NCBI GenBank assembly: GCA_030263455.1
Contig: SZOZ01000004.1
Coordinates: 62,001 to 126,000, forward strand
Source: Synechococcales cyanobacterium CNB
GTDB lineage: Bacteria; Planctomycetota; Phycisphaerae; Phycisphaerales; UBA1924
DNA length: 64,000 nt
Direction of reading: 5' to 3'
Position numbers and translations under genes: made by a program. The notes beneath the pieces are model-generated. The model made no database searches, was not told where the DNA came from, and was given only the letters and a program-made list of their open reading frames with translations. Shown here piece after piece: positions 20,154 through 38,974 of this stretch. Every line of letters begins with the position of its first letter. Position 1 is the stretch's first letter.

Positions 20154-20840
20154 TCAGCGACGGCGACGGGTGGCGACCAGGCCGCCGAGGGCCAGGAGCG
20201 CCGCGCTGCTCGGGGCGGGCACGAGGTAGGTGCAGACCTTCCGCTGGACGCCTTCCGCGCCGCCGCCGGCGTCGAAGATGTCGATGCGGGTGATCCCGTT
20301 GCCGAGGACGCCGAGGTTCGCGCCGAACGCGCCGCCGACGTTCACGTTGTTGTAGGCGGTGGAGCCGTTGGAGTCATAGACCGTGATGTTGACGGACGCG
20401 CCGCCGACGACGGTGAGAGCGTTGAACTCAACGGCCTGCACGCCCGCGCCGGAGAAGTCCATGCGGAACGCGTCGACGAAGTAGTTCGCCAGGAGGGCGT
20501 TGTGCGGGTTGCCGAAGCCGTAGTGCGGCCCGAGGGTGGCGATGTTGTAGAAGTAGTTCGCCGCGTTCACGGTGTTGAACGAGTGCGTGGCGTAGACGGT
20601 GCCGGGGCTGACCGGTCCGTTGCCCGCGCTGGTCACCGGCCCCTTGATGCCAATGAGCGGGTAGCTGGCGTCCTTGGTGAAGTCAGAGCAGCCCTCGAGG
20701 ATGAGGCCGGCCTTGGCCGCGGCCCAGCCGCCGGGGTTCTGGTCGATGTTGAAGAGCTGCGCCGAAGCGGGGGCAGCGAGTCCCGCCGAGAGGATCGTGC
20801 CGCCGAAGAGGCACTGTGCGCTGCGAGTCACATTTCTCAT
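20154..20840 (-). CDS. PEP-CTERM sorting-domain secreted protein
   Basis: 228 aa. Signal peptide (residues 1-28, ending PASA-Q), a beta-rich body, and a C-terminal sorting tail (VPAPSSAAL ... VATRRRR) of Pro-Ala-Pro, hydrophobic helix and Arg cluster. In PEP-CTERM systems an exosortase recognises this tail. No exosortase is in the window. The body includes Asn-rich segments such as TVNAANYFYNI; no enzyme motif seen. ATG 20840 has AGGAG about 10 nt upstream. Probably a cell-surface or extracellular-matrix protein. Confidence 0.75.
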   Translation of the reverse strand: MRNVTRSAQCLFGGTILSAGLAAPASAQLFNIDQNPGGWAAAKAGLILEGCSDFTKDASYPLIGIKGPVTSAGNGPVSPGTVYATHSFNTVNAANYFYNIATLGPHYGFGNPHNALLANYFVDAFRMDFSGAGVQAVEFNALTVVGGASVNITVYDSNGSTAYNNVNVGGAFGANLGVLGNGITRIDIFDAGGGAEGVQRKVCTYLVPAPSSAALLALGGLVATRRRR

Positions 20841-21647
20841 TGTCTCGTCACTCCTATACGAATCCACACGAACCACCCGCATGGGGTGATGCCCCCGACA
20901 ACGCGTCCGAGGCAGTCTGTCTCCGAACCAAGTCGCCAGCATCCCAGCGCCTGCGGCGAACGAAGTCGCCTCAACAACCGCTGGAGCCTCGCGTGGAGGC
21001 TGGCGCATGCACCACGGGCAAAGATCGACTTATCTCTCTCCGACTGTCAGTCTCTCTCAATCCGCCACAAACCGAGCGGTACTCACCGGACGAAAGTACC
21101 GGATGCCCGATCCCCGTGTCAAGCCCGGTTCGTTCCAAAAACACTTTTTCCTGCACGCCCGCCGTTCGGGGGGAATCAAGCCTTCGGCTGCGGCCATCCG
21201 GCAGTGCGAGACAGGAGTACCGGCCCAGCCCGTCGATCCGCACACGGCACGAACTCAACACCCCATTCTCGCATCCGATGCCCAGTCCCTGGCTCGGCAC
21301 AGCCCGACGAACGATCGGCGGGTTCTCCAGGTCCCCCCATCGACACAACTGCGGCGTCGATCCCCGAGTTCAGGTGCCGTCCACTGTGCATACTCCGAAC
21401 GATCGTGTCCCGAGCAAATCCGGCGGATTCCCCTTGATTCGCGCCTTCAAAGCAGGGATATTGCCCCATGAACGAACGGGCAATCCCCCTCGTTCTGAGG
21501 AGTTTGTGCGTTTCGATGGATGCGCGGGCATGTCCGAGGCCCCGACACCCAGCGGGCGTCGGCCGAGGCACCCCTCTGGAGCGCGACGGTGCGTCGCGCG
21601 GGGGTCGCCGGAGCGCGAGTCACCGGAGCGCGGAAGGAGATTGAGAC
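20841..21647. other. 807-bp divergent intergenic region
   Basis: Lies between two divergent PEP-CTERM genes and is less G/C-rich than its surroundings. It contains TATAGG on the minus strand near the 20840 gene. An imperfect hairpin with a 7-bp stem, ATTGCCC/GGGCAAT, sits at 21455-21487. A perfect 8-bp stem, GCGCGACG/CGTCGCGC, sits at 21581-21599 just upstream of the next gene. No frame has coding character, and no known RNA family was recognised. Its length is unusual for this compact region. Confidence 0.5.
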
Positions 21648-22409
21648 ATGAGGAGTCTCGTCGTGGTCAGCGCGCTCGCGCTGACGGGAAGCATGGCGAT
21701 GGCTGACATCGCGGAGCCGGTCTCCGTGGTCAACTACGCCAAGTACAACCTGACGACCGGCAAGGTCAAAGTCGGCGGCGGGGGCCACCGCACCCACCAG
21801 ATCGCGTGGGACAGCACGAACCAGACCGGGTTCTTCTCGAACCGCGTCAGCACCCAATGGGTCGTGGACTGGGGCGATGTTCCCGCAGGCAATCTCGTGC
21901 TGAACACGGTGGACGGGTTCCAGATCGGCTACGCGACCAACAGCACCGTGCCCGTGGACATCGAGGTCCGATTCTACGAGAACGGCAACGGGTTCAACGA
22001 CGTCTCGAACCAGGTGGCCGCGTTCCTCCTCACGGGCCTGCCCGGCTCAAACACCGGCGGCGTTCAGGCCTGGATCGTTGACGTGAACCTGGGATCCTCG
22101 GCGTTCATCATGAACGGACCGGACAAGGATTCCATCCCCGGCCAGGACTTCGAGTACTCCTACAACATGGCCAACCGCGGCAACGCCACCAGCATGGGAC
22201 CGCTGATCTCGACCGGCGGTCACGGGCAGGAGGACGCCTTCGACCGCTACGACGGCGGGCCGCAAGGCTCCGGCACGTACGCGGGCACCTTCTTCTTCGG
22301 CGGGAACCCCTTCGCGCAGTTCCACATGCGTCTCTACACGATCCCGGCGCCAGGCTCGCTCGCCCTCGTCGGGCTGGGCGGGCTGCTCGCCGCTCGTCGC
22401 CGTCGCTGA
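21648..22409 (+). CDS. PEP-CTERM sorting-domain secreted protein
   Basis: 253 aa. Signal peptide about residues 1-19 (ending MAMA-D), a beta-rich extracellular body rich in Asn, Gly, Ser and Thr, and a C-terminal sorting tail (IPAPGSLALVGLGG then LAARRRR). No catalytic motif seen. The Shine-Dalgarno AAGGAGA (21634-21640) lies 7 nt before ATG 21648. A clear terminator follows at 22456. The tail is almost the same as in the 20154 and 28145 proteins, which suggests all three use one exosortase-type sorting machinery encoded elsewhere. Confidence 0.78.
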   Translation: MRSLVVVSALALTGSMAMADIAEPVSVVNYAKYNLTTGKVKVGGGGHRTHQIAWDSTNQTGFFSNRVSTQWVVDWGDVPAGNLVLNTVDGFQIGYATNSTVPVDIEVRFYENGNGFNDVSNQVAAFLLTGLPGSNTGGVQAWIVDVNLGSSAFIMNGPDKDSIPGQDFEYSYNMANRGNATSMGPLISTGGHGQEDAFDRYDGGPQGSGTYAGTFFFGGNPFAQFHMRLYTIPAPGSLALVGLGGLLAARRRR

Positions 22410-28144: not shown

Positions 28145-28774
28145 TCAGCGACGGCGGCGAGCGGCGGACGCCAGCCCGAGGCCCAGCAGAGCGATCGACG
28201 CGGGAGCCGGGATGTAAGTTCCCGGATTGCCGAGGTCGCCGCCTGCCGAGAACCACGACCCCTGCACATCGCCGATGAACGAGAGCGACCACTGGTAGAC
28301 GTCGTTGGCGCCGAGAGCGGCGTTCGAGTTCGGGTTGCCGCTGATCGTCTGGGTGCGGATGGTGCCTGGGAAGGCCTGATCGCCGTAGGTGAAGCGGTCC
28401 ACGAGGTTGCCGCCGGAGTCGTAGAGATTGATCTCGTCGTTGCGCCCGAGGTTATTGGTGTAAGGCCCGAGAACAGTGACGCCGGAGAGGCCCCAATCGG
28501 CGATGAACGCCGCGGGAGAGACCTCGGTGATGATGAAGCTCTCCCCCGGCATCAGGGTGCCCGCGCCCGAAAGGTCAAACACGCCGGGCAGGCGGCTGTC
28601 GTCGTCGTAGGACCATCCCGTCATATCGACGGGAACATTGCCGATGTTGGTGAACTCGACGAACTCGCCGAGATTACCGGAGTACATCCACTCAGTGATG
28701 CGGACGTTGCTGGCGCAGGCCGCGGAGGCGATGCCGGCCGCGAGAACGGTCGCCATCATCTTCATCTTCGTCAT
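28145..28774 (-). CDS. PEP-CTERM protein with lamin-tail domain
   Basis: 209 aa. Signal peptide about residues 1-21 (ending ACA-S). The body matches a lamin-tail (LTD) immunoglobulin-like domain: RITEWMYSGNLGEFVEFTNIG, MTGWSYDDD, GESFIITE, GRNDEINLYDSGGNLVDRFTYGD. The C-terminal sorting tail is IPAPASIALLGLG then AARRRR. Extracellular or surface-anchored; the LTD fold mediates binding to DNA, protein or glycan in other proteins, target unknown here. ATG 28774 is followed by two more in-frame ATGs at 28768 and 28762, and an AGAGAG lies just before the first. Confidence 0.8.
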   Translation of the reverse strand: MTKMKMMATVLAAGIASAACASNVRITEWMYSGNLGEFVEFTNIGNVPVDMTGWSYDDDSRLPGVFDLSGAGTLMPGESFIITEVSPAAFIADWGLSGVTVLGPYTNNLGRNDEINLYDSGGNLVDRFTYGDQAFPGTIRTQTISGNPNSNAALGANDVYQWSLSFIGDVQGSWFSAGGDLGNPGTYIPAPASIALLGLGLASAARRRR

Positions 28775-29067
28775 CTCTCTTTGCTCCCATGCTGAACTGC
28801 GGTCGCCACCGACCCGCCGACCCGCGCGGGCCCGTCGCGTACCCGTGGCAGTGACGCAGCGTAGAACGGGGTTCGTTTCGCACGGATTGGCGTTCCGCTA
28901 AGGTCCTGACAAAAAGCGCGGACCCCGCGTGCTCGACGCTCACGCACCCGGAGTCTTAGCCGAGTCTTTGCGCCGCCTTGATCCGGGACAACGCTCGCAC
29001 GTCCATACTTTCGACACATGCCGCGTGGGCATCGTCGCTCGCGCTGCCGTTCGAGGGGACACGGTTC

Positions 29068-30021
29068 ATGGCGTACACGCAGCCTTCCCGTTCGGGCTTC
29101 ACGCTCATCGAACTGCTCGTCGTCATCGCGATCATCGCGCTACTGATCGGCCTGCTCCTGCCGGCGCTCGGGCAGGCGCGCGAGGTGGCGCGTCAGGCCG
29201 TGTGCGCGAGCAACCTGCGCCAGATCGGCGTTGCGTTCACCTCGTACGCGGGCTCCTGGAAGGGAACGTACGGCTCAGGCCCCTGGGACAACCGCACGAA
29301 CCGGGGCTACGGACCTGCCGACGAGGCCGGTTGGGTCGCGGACATGGTGAACGGCGAGTACGGCAGGCCGGGCGAGATGCTCTGCCCCAGCCTGCCCGCG
29401 AAGTTCAGCCAGAACCTCATCATGGAACGGCTGAACGACAAGCCGTTCAAGCCGTTCACCGAAGAGGAGCGCGACCTGCTGATCCAGCGCGGCTTCAACA
29501 CCAACTACACGCAGTCCTGGTACATGGGCCTCACCGAGCTGCGATACCCGCGCGGCGGAGAAGGCGTGCCGTTTCCCGACACGAAGAACCCCAAGGACTG
29601 CGTCGGCCCGCTGAACGATCGGTACATGGTGATGGCGCCTCCCGATGCCGTCCCACTCATGGCCGACGCCAGAACCGACACGCTCTCGGGAAACGACCAG
29701 ATCACCTACAAGGGCCAGAAGTATCCCGCCGTCAAGCAGATGACCGACGGGCCAGTCATCGATCCCGCAACGAAGTGGTTCGCCTGGCAGAACTACACCG
29801 ACTTCGGACCCGCACACGGCAAGGGCGCGATGAGCATCTCAAAGAAGGGACACGATCGCGTCATCGGCAACTTCGCCTTCGCCGACGGGCACGTCGATTC
29901 CTTCCGCGACATCAACGGCGACAAGGAGTTCGGGGGCAGGCTGCAAGGCGGCGAGTACACATACCCGGATCTCGAAGGCAGGGTGTTCGGGGGGATTCTC
30001 TCCTCGGGCAGATACCGCTGA
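29068..30021 (+). CDS. Pseudopilin-type (DUF1559/H-X9-DG-like) protein
   Basis: 317 aa. The N-terminus is a type IV pilin/type II secretion prepilin sequence: short basic leader, [19 protein letters not shown], with cleavage expected before Phe and conserved Glu at +5. The extracellular domain ends with [15 protein letters not shown], the H-x-DG type motif of the large planctomycetal prepilin-like families. It is a probable minor pseudopilin or surface protein processed by a prepilin peptidase (not in the window). ATG 29068 follows GAGGGGAC. The dockerin-type gene starts 29 bp downstream, so the two probably form an operon. Confidence 0.85.
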
Positions 30022-31729: not shown

Positions 31730-33724
31730 TCACCGGCCCGGGAGGTACTGGTCCATCCAGTCGTCCTGCCGCAGCACGGCCGCGCGGTTGCGGCGGGCGA
31801 ACGCCTCGCCGCGGCGCTGCGCGAGGCGCATCAAGGCGTGTGCTGAGCGGATGTGCGAGAGTTCTTCCGCCTGGGTGCGCCGGAGCAGCACGGGCGCGAG
31901 GTCGCGGGCGTGTTGGATCACGAGTTCGTCTTCGAGCGAGCAAAAGACCTGGGCCGAGCCGGGGTCGCCCTGCCGGCCGGCGCGCCCGATGAACTGGCGG
32001 TCGATGCGCTTCGCGGCGTGCATCTCGGTGAGCAGGACGTGGAGCCCGCCTGCGGCGCGAGCGGCGGGTTCGAGCACGATGTCCGTGCCGCGGCCGGCCA
32101 TGTTCGTGGCGACGGTGATCGGCGCGGGTGATTCGTTGGTCGCGCCGCGCCCGGCGTGTGCGATCAGCTCTGCCTCTTCCTTGTCGTGCAGGGCGTTGAG
32201 GACGACGTGCGGCAGGCCGCGCTGCGTCAGCCGTTCGCTGAGCAGTTCGCTCGCCGCGATCGACCGTGTGCCGACGAGAATCGGCCGGCCCGCTTCGTGT
32301 ACGGCTTCGATCGATTCGACGATCGCCGACCACTTCGCCTGCGCCGTGCGGAAGATGCGCCGCGGCCACTGCTCACGGATGACCGGCCTGTTCGTCGGCA
32401 CGACGACGACGGGCAGCGAGTAGACGTGCTCGATCTCGCCGGTCGCGTCGGCGGCGGTGCCCGTCATACCGCAGAGGAACGGGTAGCTGCGGAAGAACCG
32501 CTGGAAACTCATGCGGGCGAGCGTCTCGCGGTCGGCGGTGACGGTCAACCCTTCCTTCGCCTCCACCGCCTGGTGCAGGCCGTGCTCCCAGGACCGGTCC
32601 GGGAGGAACCGGCCTGTGTACTCGTCCACGATGACGACCCGGCCGTCGACGACGTGGTAGTGCTGCCCGTGGCGGTAGCAGTGGCGTGCAACGAGCGCCT
32701 GCCGGACGAGTTCCTCCGCGCGGCGCGTCGCCCGCCAGATCGGCTGGTCCAGCCCCTGGAACATCTGCGACAGGCGGTGCTCGCCGCGACTCTTGAGTTC
32801 GGCGCGCCTGCGGAGATAGTCGATCTTGTAGTCCGGCCCTTCGTCGAGTTTCGCGGCCATCGCGGCGGCCTGCTGGTAGACCTCGGACATATCGTCCTCA
32901 CGCCGGCTTCGCGCGATGATGAGCGGAACAACGCCCTCATCGATCAGCACCGCGTCCGCCTCGTCCACCAGCGCGGCCTGCAGCCCGGGCACCAGCGGCC
33001 CGCCCGCATCGCCCGAGAGCATCAATCGCTGCCGACCGGCCCACGCGCTGTTCAGTTCGCCCAGGCGGATCTGGTCGCGCAGATAGTCGGCGGTGATCTG
33101 CTTCGGCGTGCCGTAGACGATCGCGCGGGCGTAGACGTCGAACCGCGCGGCGGAGTCCATCTCCTGCTGGATCGCGCCGACGTCCAGGCCGCAGCGGCGG
33201 TAGACCGGCCGCCGGCTCTCCGCGTCGCGTCGCGCGAGGTAGTCGTTCACGGTGAAAACGTGCAGGTGTCTGCGTCGCCACGCGATGAGCGGAGCCGCGA
33301 TGGAGCCGGTCAGCGTCTTGCCCTCGCCCGTGAGCATCTCGATGACGCGCCCGTGATAGAGGGCGAGCGCGCCCATCAACTGCACGACGAACGCCTCCTC
33401 CCCCGTTTCGCGGCGTGCGGCCTCACGCACCAGCGCCATGCCGCGCCGCACCAGCGCATCATCGGCCCGTCCGCGTACGAACCGCTCGCGCGCTTCACGG
33501 ATGTTGTCCTCGAGAGCCGCTTCTGAGAGCGCACGGATCGGCGGCGCGAGGTCATCGATCAGCTCGGCCTGCCGGATGAACCATGCGCGCCGAACGCGCA
33601 ACTGTCGGGCCTTCACGCCCGCGCGCACGGCCAGTCCGTCGAGGCCCTTGTGGACCTCGGGCCGACGCCTCCGCGAACGAACGGCCTCGAACAATGCGTG
33701 ATATCGCGTGACTGCCTGGGACAT
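31730..33724 (-). CDS. SecA-like ATPase lacking the SecA C-terminal region
   Basis: 664 aa against about 830-950 for housekeeping SecA. Order: N-terminal helices; NBD1 with Walker A LTGEGKTLTG (131-140) and Walker B LVDEADAVLIDEG (252-264); a short preprotein cross-linking-like insert (about 225-375, including VDGRVVIVDEYTGRFLPDR); NBD2 with FLCGMTGTA (417-423), ATNMAGRGTDIV (539-550) and FIGRAGRQGDPGSAQ (578-592). It ends after the first part of the helical scaffold (DDWMDQYLP). The helical-wing region, second scaffold helix and C-terminal zinc tail are absent. ATPase motifs are intact. Last gene of the HlyD/M50 operon, 22 bp after the M50 gene. Probably an accessory motor for that system rather than the cell's main SecA (inference). 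Confidence 0.85.
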   Translation of the reverse strand: MSQAVTRYHALFEAVRSRRRRPEVHKGLDGLAVRAGVKARQLRVRRAWFIRQAELIDDLAPPIRALSEAALEDNIREARERFVRGRADDALVRRGMALVREAARRETGEEAFVVQLMGALALYHGRVIEMLTGEGKTLTGSIAAPLIAWRRRHLHVFTVNDYLARRDAESRRPVYRRCGLDVGAIQQEMDSAARFDVYARAIVYGTPKQITADYLRDQIRLGELNSAWAGRQRLMLSGDAGGPLVPGLQAALVDEADAVLIDEGVVPLIIARSRREDDMSEVYQQAAAMAAKLDEGPDYKIDYLRRRAELKSRGEHRLSQMFQGLDQPIWRATRRAEELVRQALVARHCYRHGQHYHVVDGRVVIVDEYTGRFLPDRSWEHGLHQAVEAKEGLTVTADRETLARMSFQRFFRSYPFLCGMTGTAADATGEIEHVYSLPVVVVPTNRPVIREQWPRRIFRTAQAKWSAIVESIEAVHEAGRPILVGTRSIAASELLSERLTQRGLPHVVLNALHDKEEAELIAHAGRGATNESPAPITVATNMAGRGTDIVLEPAARAAGGLHVLLTEMHAAKRIDRQFIGRAGRQGDPGSAQVFCSLEDELVIQHARDLAPVLLRRTQAEELSHIRSAHALMRLAQRRGEAFARRNRAAVLRQDDWMDQYLPGR

Positions 33725-33746: not shown

Positions 33747-35921
33747 TCACACGTTCACCTTGCCCTGCACCAGTTTGTGCAGGCGGTCGATCCACTGCCA
33801 CGCGAGCGGGGTGCGTGGCAGCGTGAACCGCAGCCGCACCCGCTCACCGGGCATCCCCGTCCACTGCCCGGCCTGCGCGGGCAGCGGCTCGACGTGCATC
33901 ACGAACTGCGGGTTTGTCGCGACAAGCCCCGTGTTGTCGTCCTTGGCGGTCGCGACCGAGCCTCCGCCGCCGTACCCGAGCGACGGGTGCGGCAGGCGGG
34001 TCTGCCCCGCCTCCAAAACCTTGACGACGCGCCCGGGCACCGTGTCGCCTGCACGCGAGAGGAACCGCACCTCGACGCGGTAACGCTCCTGCCCGAGCGC
34101 ATAGTGCCAGTCGGCGTCCTGCTGCTTGAGCAAGGCGGTCACGCGAACGCGCGATTCGTCAACGACACGGCAGACCGGCTCGCCGCGCTTTGCGAACGAG
34201 CCGACGAGCGCCGCCGGGTCCGCCGAGACGACGCGGCCGTCGTGGGGCGCGCGAACGATGAGTTTTTCGATCTCTTTCCGCAGGTAATCGGCCTGCCCGC
34301 CGAGCGTGTCGATGCGCTGGCGCGCGACCTGGGCCGTTGCCGTGCTGCCTCTGCCCATCGCCTGCTGCTCGATGCTCTCCATCTCGGCGATCCGGGCCGT
34401 GACGATGGCGAGGCGTGCCCGCAACTCATCGCTGCGGAGCGTGACGATCGGTTCGCCGGCGCGGACCGCGTCGCCGATGCGGACGTGCGCCTCCTCGACG
34501 AACCCGTCGGCACCGAAGAAGACGCCGGTGGATGCCTCGCTCTCGACGACGCCCGTAGCGCGCCTGTGGTCGGGCATGGGCACAAGGCCGACCGCACCGA
34601 GACCGACGGCGATCATCGCCAGGCTGGTCGCGATCGCCCGCGGCCGGAAGTCGGCGAGCGACGGGTGGCTCGCCAGCCAGTGGACGAACTTGCCGACGGG
34701 CAGGATGAACCACATGCCCGCCGTCCAGATCGCCAGCACCAGCCCGATGGCGAAGAGTTTGCCCATCACGTAGAGCGTGATCGAGAAGAACAGGAAGATG
34801 CGGTAGGCGAGCGCGAGGATGCCGTAGGTGTAGAGGATGGCCGTCTCGCCGCGCTGGCTGCTCGGGGGCGTCTCGTTCTTCATCCTGTAGACGCGGGTCT
34901 TGAAGAAGTGTTTGAGCTGGTTCATCGACCGCTGCATGAGGTTGGGCACCTCGAGCAGGTCGGCGAGAATGAAGTAGCCGTCGAAGCGCATGAGCGGGTT
35001 GGCGTTGAAGAGGATGGTGGACACCGACGCCGTGAAGATGGCGTTGTACGCGATCTGATGCACCAACGAGCCGGGCTGTGTATTCAGCCATACGAGCGCA
35101 GCGATCGACGCCACGAACAACTCGAAGATCATCCCCCCCGCGCCGACCGCGATTCGCTTCCACTTGCTGGCGAAGGACCAGGCGGCCGAGGCATCGACGT
35201 AGGGTGCCGGGAAGAGGACGAGCAGCATGAAGCCGAACTCCGGCACCTGCCCGCCGAACCGCTTGCAGATGACGCCGTGCCCCGTCTCGTGAATCGCCTT
35301 CGTCACGATGAACACGACGACGAGCCAAGGCCACAGCGTCGGGTCGCGGTAGACGTCTTCCGCCTGTCCGAGCAGGGCTTCCCAGTGCGGTGCGAGCTGC
35401 ACGAGCGCGAACAGCACGAAGGCCAGCCACGCGAAGAAGCCCCACTTGTTCAGCACCGGCCGCAGGATCGGCTCGATCCATGCGAGGTAACGGTCCGGGT
35501 TGAAGACCCGGATGCGGAAGTACATGATGCCGATCGCCTGCTGGGCCGCCTTCTGCCCGAGCCGCTTGCGCCCGCGCCGCAGGAGCTGCTCCGTCTCGGG
35601 GGTCACGTCCGCGGCCAGCAGGTTCGAGTTGTACAACTGGCTGATGAGCTGGATCACCTCGCCCTGGGTCGGCGCGGCGTCGCCGTGGCGTTCGAGGCAC
35701 GCCTGCCAGATCTCCTCCACGGTGCGTGAGCCGTCGAACAGGCCGACGAACTCATGCGCGATCGGATTCAGCCGATAGAACTGGTTGCTGGAGGGGTCGC
35801 GCACGACGTGCCAGCGCCGACCGCGGTAGTGCTGGCGCGTGATCTGCACGTGCGGCCGCAGCCGGGGCTTCATCGCCCGCACGCGGTGCCAGAAGGGGGA
35901 GAATGTCGGGCGTTCGCTCAA
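33747..35921 (-). CDS. PqqD-like / M50 site-2 protease / HlyD fusion membrane protein
   Basis: 724 aa. Residues 24-105 are a PqqD-like winged helix (RRE-type peptide-binding fold; YRLNPIAHEFVGLFDG). Residues 160-450 are a polytopic M50 metalloprotease: zinc motif HETGH at 211-215 and NPLMRFDGYF at 308-317 (the N-P-x4-D-G motif). Residues 455-720 are an HlyD/biotinyl-lipoyl-like periplasmic adaptor with a helical hairpin (about 500-550). This matches the 'putative peptide zinc metalloprotease' type seen with bacteriocin and peptide export. The start appears to be TTG 35921, with a TGA directly upstream in frame and TGAGG nearby; ATG at residue 17 is an alternative. 108 bp after the GAF-HlyD gene. 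Confidence 0.85.
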   Translation of the reverse strand: MSERPTFSPFWHRVRAMKPRLRPHVQITRQHYRGRRWHVVRDPSSNQFYRLNPIAHEFVGLFDGSRTVEEIWQACLERHGDAAPTQGEVIQLISQLYNSNLLAADVTPETEQLLRRGRKRLGQKAAQQAIGIMYFRIRVFNPDRYLAWIEPILRPVLNKWGFFAWLAFVLFALVQLAPHWEALLGQAEDVYRDPTLWPWLVVVFIVTKAIHETGHGVICKRFGGQVPEFGFMLLVLFPAPYVDASAAWSFASKWKRIAVGAGGMIFELFVASIAALVWLNTQPGSLVHQIAYNAIFTASVSTILFNANPLMRFDGYFILADLLEVPNLMQRSMNQLKHFFKTRVYRMKNETPPSSQRGETAILYTYGILALAYRIFLFFSITLYVMGKLFAIGLVLAIWTAGMWFILPVGKFVHWLASHPSLADFRPRAIATSLAMIAVGLGAVGLVPMPDHRRATGVVESEASTGVFFGADGFVEEAHVRIGDAVRAGEPIVTLRSDELRARLAIVTARIAEMESIEQQAMGRGSTATAQVARQRIDTLGGQADYLRKEIEKLIVRAPHDGRVVSADPAALVGSFAKRGEPVCRVVDESRVRVTALLKQQDADWHYALGQERYRVEVRFLSRAGDTVPGRVVKVLEAGQTRLPHPSLGYGGGGSVATAKDDNTGLVATNPQFVMHVEPLPAQAGQWTGMPGERVRLRFTLPRTPLAWQWIDRLHKLVQGKVNV

Positions 35922-36029: not shown

Positions 36030-38033
36030 CTACCACCACAGCCACAACCTCACCGTGTCCCTGATCCGCCGGGTGCCGATGTCGAGCAGCGTGCGCCGGC
36101 CGGTGTCGAACTTCGCCAGCCCTTCCATGCCCGGTCGCATCCAGGGGGCGGTCTCGGTCAGACGCACGCGGACCTCGAAGGCGTTGCGTCCCTCCTCCGG
36201 CGTCGCCAAAGGCACGATGCGCTCCATCTCGAACCCGAACCGGGTGTCGGGCTTGGCCTTCGTCGCGAGGTCGTGCCGTGCCGCGCCGCTCTCCCGACCA
36301 GCGGCCTCCATGATGAGCGCGATGTCGCGGTCGTCCACTCGCGCGACGCCGATCATGTCGTCGAGCGGAGCGATCTCGAAGAGCGCCTGCCCCGTCTGCA
36401 CCGACGAGCCGATCCGCTCCTCCAGTTCGCCAGCGAGGATCGTCCCTGCGATCGGCGCCCGCACCACGGCCCGCTCGATCTTCGTCGCCAGGAGGTCTAC
36501 CTCGGCCTGTGCGGCATCTGCCTGCGCCTCGGCCTGCTGCACCTCGGCCTGCTTGCCCTGAGCGCGGGCGTTGTCAGCGCGCTTGAGCGCCTCGCGCCGA
36601 CGGTTCTCCGCTTCGAGTATCTGCAGGCGCAGTTCGACCGTGTCCAGTTCCAGCAGCACGTCGCCGGCTGCGACGCGTGCCCCAGGGCGGATCTCGTCCG
36701 GCAGCGCGGCGATGATGCCGTCGAACGGTGCGGAGATCGTCCGCTTGTGCCTCGGTTCGAGCGTGATCGGCGCCTCGACGCGGTAGGGCACGCGAACGAA
36801 CGTGACGAGGATGGCGATCGCCATCACGGTCACGCCCGCCAGTTTCCACGCCGTGTGCTTCGGACCGACGAGCCACTCGCCCGCGCGGAGTGTCGCGTCC
36901 CAGGTGCGCAGCGCGAGGTTGCGGTCGTTGAGCCGCTTGAGCCGCAGCACCGGCGCGACGAGGTCCATCGTGCTCTGGAGCAGCTCGATCGTCGCGGGGT
37001 CGATCCGTCCTTCGCCGCTCGTCTCGACCGTCACGACGCCCGCGGCGTCCTCGTCGATGCGCAGCGGCAGCGAGCAGACCTTCAGTTTCGCGTCCGATGA
37101 CGCCAACTCCCGGTGCGCGTGCGTGATCGCCTGCGCCAGCAGCACGTCGGCGACCTCGCCGGCCTCGCCCCGTTCCGGAGGGGGGGGGTGCATCACCGGC
37201 TGCTCCTGGTCGAAGCACTCGTCCATCGCGGCTTCGAGCTTCTGGACCATCGCCATTCGCCGGTCCACGTGCTCGGTGTCGCTGATGGCCACGACCTTCA
37301 CGCTCGCCCCTTCGCCGCCGCGGCCGATGCCCTTCGCCCATCCGACCGCGACACGATCGACGCCCAGCTGGCGAGAGAGATCGTTCGCCAGTTGCATCGC
37401 CGCCCCCTTGAAGTTCGGCGTCGCGTTCAGCGATGCGATCAGCCGCGTCGCCAGGTCCAGGGCGGCGCCGGCGGCGCGCGTCCGGCGCAACGCCTGCCGC
37501 GCTCCGTGCGCATGAACGTAGCCGCACAGCACCTCGACCAGCGCCAGGGTCGTCTGCAACGCGGCCCGCGACCGCCCTTCGAGAAGGAGCGTGATGACGT
37601 GCCGCACGACCGGCGCAGGCCCCTCAGGCGTGCCCGACGCCAGCGGCACCGCGACGAGATAGCCCTTGTGGTCCGAGTCGTAGAAGGGGCTGTCGGCCTC
37701 GAGGCCGTAGACCTCGATCCTGTTCGCGGTGGCCGCCGCTCGTGCTCCGCCACGGACGTCGATCTCACGCTCGACCGCGCCCTCGGGCAGCGTCCCTCCC
37801 TGGGCGTCGGAAGGGGGGGGCCAGACCATGACGGGCCGCGGCTCCGGCTCGCCCGAGCCGCCCTCGTCCCCGCTCACGCCCACGGTGAAGAGCACGGCCT
37901 GGCGCGCCCCGGCCGCCTGGGCGAGCACTGCCATCAGGCGCATCAAAAACGTGCGGTCGTCCGGCGCTGGCGCGGAGAGTTCCGCCACCACGCGCTGCCA
38001 GCCTGGCGCTCGCAACTTCGACAGGTCGATCAC
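36030..38033 (-). CDS. GAF-like sensor domains fused to an HlyD-type adaptor
   Basis: 667 aa. Residues 1-390 are cytoplasmic and contain one or two GAF-like domains (LASGTPEGPAPVVRHVITLL; later NDLSRQLGVDRVAVGW ... VCSLPLRIDEDAAGVVTVE). One transmembrane helix lies at about 396-413. Residues 416-667 are a periplasmic membrane-fusion (HlyD) domain: lipoyl-like TISAPFDGIIAALP, an Ala/Gln/Glu coiled-coil hairpin (about 470-520), then APIAGTIL. GTG 38033 overlaps the stop of the upstream adaptor gene by 4 bp (GTGA), so translation is coupled. A cytoplasmic GAF sensor on an adaptor is unusual and suggests that ligand binding inside tunes the export complex. Runs of 9 and 8 G (37180-37188, 37813-37820) lie in frame. 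Confidence 0.8.
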   Translation of the reverse strand: MIDLSKLRAPGWQRVVAELSAPAPDDRTFLMRLMAVLAQAAGARQAVLFTVGVSGDEGGSGEPEPRPVMVWPPPSDAQGGTLPEGAVEREIDVRGGARAAATANRIEVYGLEADSPFYDSDHKGYLVAVPLASGTPEGPAPVVRHVITLLLEGRSRAALQTTLALVEVLCGYVHAHGARQALRRTRAAGAALDLATRLIASLNATPNFKGAAMQLANDLSRQLGVDRVAVGWAKGIGRGGEGASVKVVAISDTEHVDRRMAMVQKLEAAMDECFDQEQPVMHPPPPERGEAGEVADVLLAQAITHAHRELASSDAKLKVCSLPLRIDEDAAGVVTVETSGEGRIDPATIELLQSTMDLVAPVLRLKRLNDRNLALRTWDATLRAGEWLVGPKHTAWKLAGVTVMAIAILVTFVRVPYRVEAPITLEPRHKRTISAPFDGIIAALPDEIRPGARVAAGDVLLELDTVELRLQILEAENRRREALKRADNARAQGKQAEVQQAEAQADAAQAEVDLLATKIERAVVRAPIAGTILAGELEERIGSSVQTGQALFEIAPLDDMIGVARVDDRDIALIMEAAGRESGAARHDLATKAKPDTRFGFEMERIVPLATPEEGRNAFEVRVRLTETAPWMRPGMEGLAKFDTGRRTLLDIGTRRIRDTVRLWLWW

Positions 38034-38974
38034 GGCGCTGCCTCCCCCCTCGTCGCGCGTGCCGCGCGGCCTGGCACGATCCGCTCCCGCCACTCCGCGC
38101 TCGGCTCGGTGAAGCGAACCCAGCACGCCAGGCCGGGCACGAGATGCTCGGGGTTCGGCACCTCGACGCGGACGCGCCGCGTGCCGCTGGCCGCGTCCAC
38201 GGTCGGCGCGACCTCCGAGACGGTGCCGAGATACACGCGCTGGTCGCGCGCCACCGGCATCAGCACCCACGCCGGGTCGCCGACTTTCAGCCCGAGTTCG
38301 AGCGTCTGGTCCGCCGGCGCGGGCACATCGATCTCCAGCGGATCGACGGACACGATGCGCACGACCGGATCGCCCTCGCGCACGGACTGGCCCTCGTCCA
38401 CGAGCACCTGGTCCACCACGCCGTCCCACGGCGCGCGCAGGCTGAACTTCGCCACCCTCGCCTCGGCTCTGTCTGCCTGCAGACGAGAGAGCGTCTGGTT
38501 GAACAACTGGAGGTCGAGGTCGATCTCCGCCGTCTCGCTCGCCACACGGGCGCGGTCGTACTCCGCCTGCGACAACCCGCCGCGCCGGAAGACCTCGTCG
38601 GCGCGATCGAACTCCAGCCTCGCCAGTTCCGTCTGCTTGCGGGCGCGCTGCACGGGCAGTTCGGTCTCGGCGCGCTCGCGCTGGAAGCGCGCCTCGGCGA
38701 TGTCCTCGCTGTCGTCGCCGCGAACGAGCAGGTCGCCCGCGGCCACCCGCTGCCCGCCGACCACGGCGACCTCCGCCACGCTCGTAGACAGAGAGAAGCC
38801 CATCACCGCGTCGCGGCTCGGTTTCGTGACCGCCCGCTCGCCGCCGAACGAACGCACCGTCGCCGACTCAGCCGCGGGCTGAGGCGACGGCACAATCGAC
38901 GCCGCGCACACCACCGCGACCGACACCAGACCGATCACCGCGGCAACTCGCCGCCTGACAACAGGTGGACTCAT
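38030..38974 (-). CDS. HlyD/RND-type periplasmic adaptor subunit
   Basis: 314 aa. A short N-terminus and one membrane helix/signal anchor (residues 8-28), then a membrane-fusion protein: lipoyl half MGFSLSTSVAEVAVVGGQRVAAGDLLV, a coiled-coil hairpin (about 95-165, ETELPVQRARKQTELARLEF), the second lipoyl half LRAPWDGVVDQVLVDEGQSV, and a beta-barrel domain. First gene of the four-gene operon. ATG 38974 is preferred (GAAGAAAG upstream); ATG 38992 is in frame. Unlike typical adaptors, no inner-membrane pump or outer-membrane channel gene lies beside it. Confidence 0.85.
   Translation of the reverse strand: MSPPVVRRRVAAVIGLVSVAVVCAASIVPSPQPAAESATVRSFGGERAVTKPSRDAVMGFSLSTSVAEVAVVGGQRVAAGDLLVRGDDSEDIAEARFQRERAETELPVQRARKQTELARLEFDRADEVFRRGGLSQAEYDRARVASETAEIDLDLQLFNQTLSRLQADRAEARVAKFSLRAPWDGVVDQVLVDEGQSVREGDPVVRIVSVDPLEIDVPAPADQTLELGLKVGDPAWVLMPVARDQRVYLGTVSEVAPTVDAASGTRRVRVEVPNPEHLVPGLACWVRFTEPSAEWRERIVPGRAARATRGEAAP

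Follow-up and report, generated by a model that had tools for sequence, protein, structure and literature searches.

The stretch of DNA analysed here, 64,000 nucleotides of contig SZOZ01000004.1 (positions 62,001 to 126,000) from Synechococcales cyanobacterium CNB, a genome placed in the Planctomycetota by GTDB, is referred to as the window, and coordinates are those of the window. One of its operons raises the question of what is moved across the cell envelope by a set of HlyD-type adaptors that is encoded together with a SecA-like ATPase. Read leftward, the four genes encode a short HlyD adaptor (gene 1), a tandem-GAF/HlyD adaptor (gene 2, 36030 to 38033), a PqqD-M50-HlyD protein (gene 3) and a truncated SecA-like ATPase (gene 4), and no ABC, RND or MFS pump was found among these four genes with Pfam, the ABC search being limited to them. 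Domains, folds, the operon, the conservation of catalytic motifs and an association with the planctomycete export motif LEPR-XLL (PF07595, Planc_extracel; NCBIfam NF012209), which is carried by giant proteins encoded beside the locus, were computed. It is likely that the locus is a SecA-driven exporter of LEPR-XLL giant surface proteins, with gene 2 as its cytosol-facing adaptor; the PqqD/M50 protein is probably used for recognition and cleavage of the leader. An earlier sequence-only reading of gene 2 had recognised the fusion of a GAF-like region, a membrane helix and an adaptor, which held, and had overlooked the SecA-like export locus with its LEPR-XLL giants; its guess of a cyclic-nucleotide ligand found no support.

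Relatives of the locus comprised 42 loci, 34 from a scan of species genomes and eight on plasmids. The plasmid search for relatives of the GAF-HlyD protein gave 14 records at 28-33% identity, eight of which were opened, all from Alphaproteobacteria; H7, H8 and H10-H13, three of them Rhizobium records, were left out. In all eight plasmid loci inspected, a giant gene with an N-terminal LEPR-XLL motif preceded the operon. The motif, of the form [LMFIY]EPR-x-L-[LM], was present at the N-terminus of six giants as annotated, was found through an unannotated open reading frame in Pseudohalocynthiibacter, and lay in frame upstream of the annotated start in Alisedimentitalea. It was recognised above cut-off by NF012209 in 4/4 plasmid giants tested. 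The reverse test with a 23-residue motif query gave seven matches in 72,556 plasmid records, all within the 14 GAF-HlyD records (hypergeometric p = 1.6e-27). The seven include the query's own record as well as three similar Rhizobium records, probably close relatives of one another. In these three, motif and adaptor share a strand at a distance of about 32 kb, which in one case runs over the start of the record. This query was insensitive, because four opened records that carry the motif were missed. On the Alisedimentitalea plasmid (L057) the giant gene probably begins upstream of its annotated start, with the motif in frame immediately before that start. On the 62 kb Pseudohalocynthiibacter plasmid (L061, L051) the LEPR-XLL giant frame of 9035 codons reaches the record end and a 2547-codon open frame starts at the first base; the two may be a single gene, filling more than half of the plasmid.

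The same association was observed across 244 genomes of Planctomycetota, in which presence of the system was judged by the PqqD-M50 part alone, at E 1e-20 or better. This part was detected in 75 genomes, NF012209 in 23 and PF07595 in 15. The M50 gene was present in 21/23 NF012209-positive and 13/15 PF07595-positive genomes; taken together, 33/37 motif-positive genomes carried it, compared with 42/207 motif-negative ones (Fisher 8e-16). At the level of families, for which labels were counted by hand and the highest label seen, 64, was taken as the number of families, it was found in 13/15 motif-positive families and 12/49 others (p 2.5e-5). Exosortase, used as a control, showed a much weaker association (24/37 motif-positive against 94/207 motif-negative genomes, p 0.022). 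At least eight genomes carry a motif gene and the M50 gene on one strand, the former 7-32 kb upstream. This figure is a lower bound, because the 35 M50 rows and 25 motif rows entered into the proximity test were hand-picked and hand-typed; two more widely separated pairs were left uncounted, one in G234 with 52 kb between genes on opposite strands and one in G176 at 97 kb. As to specificity, at E 0.001 NF012209 matched 0/14 control genomes and PF07595 1/14, and at E 10 NF012209 matched 7/14, once above its cut-off. In the window's genome the two best motif proteins, whose frames measure 1908 and 1375 codons, exceed the NF012209 cut-off, and the others were below it; when motif N-termini from this genome were scanned alone, 1/4 passed. 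The weak matches of this genome are doubtful, because of the control matches at E 10. Another member of the window's order (G137) showed 17 LEPR-XLL matches, one of them in an open frame of 10,951 codons. DUF4347 was tried as a cargo domain and set aside, the search being uninformative because neither the window's genome nor any of the 14 controls gave a match.

GAF-HlyD, M50 and SecA-like genes come in a conserved order, both in Planctomycetota and on alphaproteobacterial plasmids. By their titles, the 34 genome loci, 33 of them labelled as metagenome-assembled genomes, belong to Planctomycetota of several orders and one member of the Puniceicoccales. The M50 gene came after the GAF-HlyD gene in 38 of the 39 loci with room for it (Terrarubrum being the exception), and a SecA-like gene came after in 31 of the 35 loci with about 3.9 kb or more downstream. 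Loci with room were counted by eye: L019, L025 and L029 were dropped from the M50 count, and L026, L030, L041 and L042 in addition from the SecA-like count, L041 showing a cut-off SecA-like piece. The short HlyD gene had no fixed place: it preceded the GAF gene, followed the SecA-like gene, or stood beside a TolC-type gene on the opposite strand. A TolC-type gene was detected with phmmer in 10/42 loci, and Pfam OEP matched in 5/5 of those tested. A small DUF3467 gene was also seen before the GAF-HlyD gene in 13/42 loci (L047, L049-L054, L025, L028-L030, L040 and L044).

Several observations weigh against an exporter of LEPR-XLL giants. No motif protein was found to adjoin the operon in the window, and an adjacent motif frame was present in only four of the 34 genome loci (L033, L037, L045 and L046, 791 to more than 3,200 codons); L043 has an adjacent frame with a variant of the motif, and a pattern match within an oxidoreductase frame of L047 was plainly due to chance. 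None of the closest relatives, L013-L024, showed an adjacent motif frame, and most of these have long flanks; many other genome loci are short in sequence. Among the 75 system-positive genomes, 42 had no motif match at the thresholds used, so that either the motif models miss divergent tags, as such short models may, or other cargo exists. Conversely, four motif-positive genomes (G040, G087, G094 and G228) lacked the M50 gene, and a looser M50 search in these four gave nothing convincing (best E 5e-5, a partial match in G228). In family f45 the motif and the M50 gene were found in different genomes, the family-level count is the sole correction of the association for phylogeny, and the exosortase control was itself slightly enriched. 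The locus also varies: M50 and SecA-like genes are both absent from the Terrarubrum locus (L054), no adjacent SecA-like gene was found in L021, L046 and L049, and that of L031 is split over two frames.

These points could be accommodated if the locus exported something else, or served proteolytic signalling, and LEPR-XLL proteins merely co-occurred with it in the same kind of bacterium. The 42 motif-less genomes, the lack of a motif protein beside the window operon and the resemblance of the M50 part to maturation proteases of ribosomally synthesised and post-translationally modified peptides (RiPPs) would fit this explanation. It is nevertheless improbable in view of the adjacency in all eight inspected plasmids, repeated in 7/7 matches of the reverse test, of the much weaker exosortase control, and of the same-strand linkage in at least eight genomes. 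Export of LEPR-XLL giants is retained as the preferred reading.

In its gene set, the window operon corresponds to the secondary SecA_DEAD locus described by Kamneva, Poudel and Ward in 2015 from Planctomycetes, Proteobacteria and others (PMC4452313). That locus comprises a SecA_DEAD protein without the scaffold/wing domain, M50/HlyD, GAF/HlyD and HlyD proteins and sometimes OEP and, by the account given there, has no ABC transporter; the window operon likewise encodes a SecA without SecA_SW together with M50/HlyD, GAF/HlyD and HlyD proteins. The authors suggested a sensory role for GAF-HlyD, SecA_DEAD as ATPase and M50 as pore, and termed the broader role of the locus completely unknown. The operon with all four genes is also reported there from Methylobacterium extorquens AM1. 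Both the locus and the GAF-HlyD architecture are already in print, with reanalysed expression data behind the locus. The main text of PMC4452313 does not use the words LEPR, giant or PqqD; the present analysis adds the PqqD domain, the intactness of the protease motifs, the tandem fold of the GAF region and the link to a cargo. The motif has a separate literature: RRLxxExLExRxLLA is thought to be a novel N-terminal export signal (PMC8567305, citing Studholme 2004), and in Tuwongella immobilis it was reported in 52 genes, of which 20 were detected, eight of these in the sodium dodecyl sulfate-soluble fraction only, and in 8/10 of the longest proteins (PMC8567305). We found no exporter of the motif named in that paper, and SecA and HlyD are absent from its main text. 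A link between the LEPR-XLL motif and a SecA-like locus was not found among the literature matches listed, most subscription journals and all preprints lying outside the search; among these matches, the link of the SecA-like/HlyD locus to LEPR-XLL giants is the new element. It would join two loose ends, a conserved SecA-like/HlyD locus whose broader role PMC4452313 left unassigned in 2015, and an N-terminal export motif that very long planctomycete proteins carry and for which we found no exporter named in PMC8567305.

Gene 2 is read on the minus strand from a GTG at 38033 to a stop at 36030, the coordinates given by the sequence-only reading, and encodes 667 amino acids. A purine-rich stretch lies upstream of its start, and its first four bases are also the last four of gene 1. 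Open reading frame, hydropathy, Pfam and AlphaFold2 agreed with the earlier description of about 390 N-terminal residues, one membrane helix and an HlyD adaptor. The only stretch with a 19-residue mean hydropathy above 1.6 starts at residues 394-401, and the helix was modelled at residues 394-412 (36798..36854, minus). Pfam gave GAF PF01590 at 214-360 with 26.7 bits (cut-off 22.4), HlyD_3 with 57.2 bits and HlyD_D23 with 34.8 bits. The AlphaFold2 model, computed from 33 aligned sequences including the window's own, had a mean pLDDT of 83.4 and a pTM of 0.51 and showed a complete adaptor after the helix (36036..36794, minus; Pfam, AlphaFold2, Foldseek and structural alignment), with barrel-sandwich, beta-barrel and a hairpin of two 27-residue helices (466-492 and 495-521). 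Fusion of the GAF region through a single helix to a periplasmic adaptor is regular in the family and aligns over the same 33 sequences; the four alignments used here have 19 (A1), 33 (A2), 29 (A3) and 14 rows (A4), and L024, with a broken frame in the GAF part, was excluded from A2. By analogy with the layout of the HlyD family, and with no signal peptide, the N-terminus is predicted to be cytoplasmic.

In structural alignment the HlyD part (about residues 415-650) matched MacA, MexA and ZneB, with AcrA also among the likenesses, as would be expected of an ordinary multidrug or metal pump adaptor with an odd N-terminal extension. Such a role in efflux is very improbable, since the operon's four genes include no RND, MFS or ABC pump and the partner genes encode SecA-like and PqqD-M50 proteins. 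Gene 1, on the minus strand, ends at 38030 and starts at 38974 (38030..38974) or 38992, both candidates; it encodes a short RND/HlyD-type adaptor (TIGR01730 116 bits, cut-off 94.9). An AcrA-like R-L-S hairpin tip was considered as a discriminator among the adaptors. The loose pattern occurred in 13/31 of the gene 1 set, 6/42 GAF-HlyD and 17/39 gene 3 proteins, and was dropped because many matches were visibly away from the tip.

Gene 3 (33747..35921, minus) encodes 724 amino acids comprising a PqqD domain, an M50-type membrane metalloprotease and an HlyD adaptor, as indicated by Pfam, NCBIfam and AlphaFold2. The PqqD domain, of the peptide-binding winged-helix type (residues about 26-98; 35628..35846, minus), scored 34.9 bits in Pfam (cut-off 23.4), and the model showed three strands followed by three helices in PqqD-like order, then many long helices and the adaptor last; the order of winged-helix elements and the profile score agree. 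The Pfam M50 match of 23.9 bits was below the cut-off of 27.2; the HExxH motif is intact at residues 211-215 (35277..35291, minus) and present in 39/39 aligned sequences, as is the D of the downstream NPLxxxD motif at residues 308-315 (34977..35000, minus). Residues 19-404 matched NF041824, a daptide-type membrane metalloprotease, with 176 bits, below the cut-off of 300. The nearest NCBIfam models of the PqqD-M50 part are the daptide and epipeptide (LiaK/YydH) maturation proteases, NF041824 and NF058609, to which gene 3 adds an HlyD adaptor. This likeness hints at a common ancestry of RiPP leader processing and the exporter.

Gene 4 (31730..33724, minus) encodes a truncated SecA-like ATPase of 664 amino acids, identified by Pfam, NCBIfam and a match to a solved SecA. 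In an alignment of 31 SecA-like proteins, conservation of at least 95% was seen for Walker A, DExD and GRxxRQG, and for each residue of the Walker A GEGKT (33314..33328, minus). The later, wing-bearing part is absent, because the best solved-SecA match stops at residue 605 of the 778 of that SecA; Pfam gave no SecA_SW match at E 1. Another SecA of the window's genome was seen at G000:C6:51232-52866, in a 1472-codon open frame in which the DEAD domain was matched in two pieces. The operon resembles type I secretion (HlyB-HlyD-TolC) in its HlyD adaptors and in the TolC-type outer protein and very large substrates of such loci. It differs in having a SecA-like motor in place of an ABC transporter, and the tag linked to this type of locus is N-terminal. 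It was not assigned to type I secretion because the defining ABC motor is missing among its four genes. OEP/TolC-type matches were found in five open frames elsewhere in the window's genome, and a weak sixth inside an HlyD-type frame.

From these components we infer the transport steps, binding and cleavage of the leader, the topology and the role of the GAF region. The PqqD domain of gene 3 would bind the N-terminal LEPR-XLL motif of the substrate, and the chain would be driven by the truncated SecA-like ATPase along a route lined by, or adjacent to, the M50 membrane domain, whose HExxH site may cut off the leader. A tube through the periplasm, built of the three HlyD-type adaptors of genes 1, 2 and 3, would lead on to a TolC-type protein of the outer membrane. 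Gene 2 would place its tandem GAF at the cytoplasmic mouth, where it could dock the motor or the substrate, gate the machine by a small ligand, or both. With a PqqD domain reading a LEPR-XLL leader, a wing-less SecA motor, a route other than SecY and gating by GAF domains, this might tentatively be regarded as a secretion pathway apart from the known numbered types. If export proceeds in this manner, a SecA-type motor works with adaptors and TolC in place of an ABC transporter, the tandem GAF is an unusual cytosolic control or docking element of an adaptor, and deleting one gene would be enough to put the export of giant surface proteins to the test.

The GAF-like features recognised in the sequence-only reading proved by structure prediction to be two GAF folds in tandem and not one. 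In the AlphaFold2 model the GAF topology occurs twice, at residues about 26-170 (37524..37958, minus) and 206-370 (36924..37418, minus), on either side of a long linking helix at 172-203 (37425..37520, minus). The first is weakly conserved in sequence, has no Pfam GAF match and was identified in the model by fold alone. The second is strongly conserved and matched by PF01590, and aligned by itself to 3ci6 with a Z of 15.6 and a root-mean-square deviation of 3.2 A over 150 residues; PF01590 was matched at E 0.01 or better in 14/14 N-terminal regions of alignment A4. A weak point is that the Thalassospira homologue (L049), which is of similar length and lies outside A4, gave no Pfam GAF match at E 0.1. 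Residues 5-381 of the model aligned to the tandem GAFs of PDE5A, PDE6, PDE2A and cyanobacterial CyaB2 (Z 13.7-16.6). Because the two-domain deviation is high (8-12.5 A), the position of one GAF with respect to the other is not to be relied on. In the second GAF, S251, R258, E272, D275, Q276, R325, T335 and E337 were conserved at 0.8 or more of 41 aligned sequences, E254 reached 0.76 in this alignment and at least 0.9 in that of 33 sequences, and G231, E272, D275 and P323 were invariant across the 33. The first GAF was poorly conserved in both alignments.

Control of the exporter by a small ligand inside the cell, as suggested in the sequence-only reading, is possible, if somewhat doubtful; one GAF would act as the sensor, and the signal would pass by way of the long helix and the membrane helix to the adaptor. 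Two GAFs with a long helix resemble the ligand-gated PDE2, PDE5 and PDE6 and CyaB2, and the polar residues of the second GAF are kept at the level given above. Unlike these proteins, gene 2 has an adaptor as its effector in place of a cyclase or phosphodiesterase, and a scan of the whole protein found no NK dipeptide and no match to an NKFDE-type or looser pattern, which we take to be the signature of cyclic-nucleotide-binding GAFs. With this signature absent, the cyclic-nucleotide ligand was dropped; the conserved polar residues would fit another ligand or a protein contact. Ligand sensing is also weakened by the poor conservation of the first GAF and by the comparison of a GAF-region profile with PDB sequences, in which matches were weak and mixed (best E 0.026) and gave no family assignment, and likeness of fold by itself reveals no function. 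Alternatively, and as a rival to ligand sensing but not to export, the GAFs may be ligand-free structural domains that tether the SecA-like motor or the leader to the membrane. In favour of this, nearly all loci with room have the M50 gene behind the GAF-HlyD gene, conservation of the second GAF includes the charged or polar residues E272, D275 and Q276 of one helix, and the motor of the operon is soluble and has no ABC permease on which to dock; a pocket lined by the invariant residues would be just as compatible with their conservation. Docking, a tentative proposal, stands slightly ahead of ligand sensing, with no firm choice made between them.

Scans for sigma-70 promoters and terminators were uninformative, with one promoter-like match (0.3 expected) and three terminator-like matches (2.6 expected). 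Elsewhere in the window, C-terminal sorting signals of the PEP-CTERM type were seen in three proteins, at 20154-21008 (minus), 21648-22409 (plus) and 28145-28774 (minus), and an exosortase gene was located in the window's genome at C5:18119-18913. The frame at 28978-30021 (plus) encodes a pseudopilin-like protein whose N-terminus is of the prepilin kind and whose C-terminus matches H-X9-DG weakly, below the cut-off.

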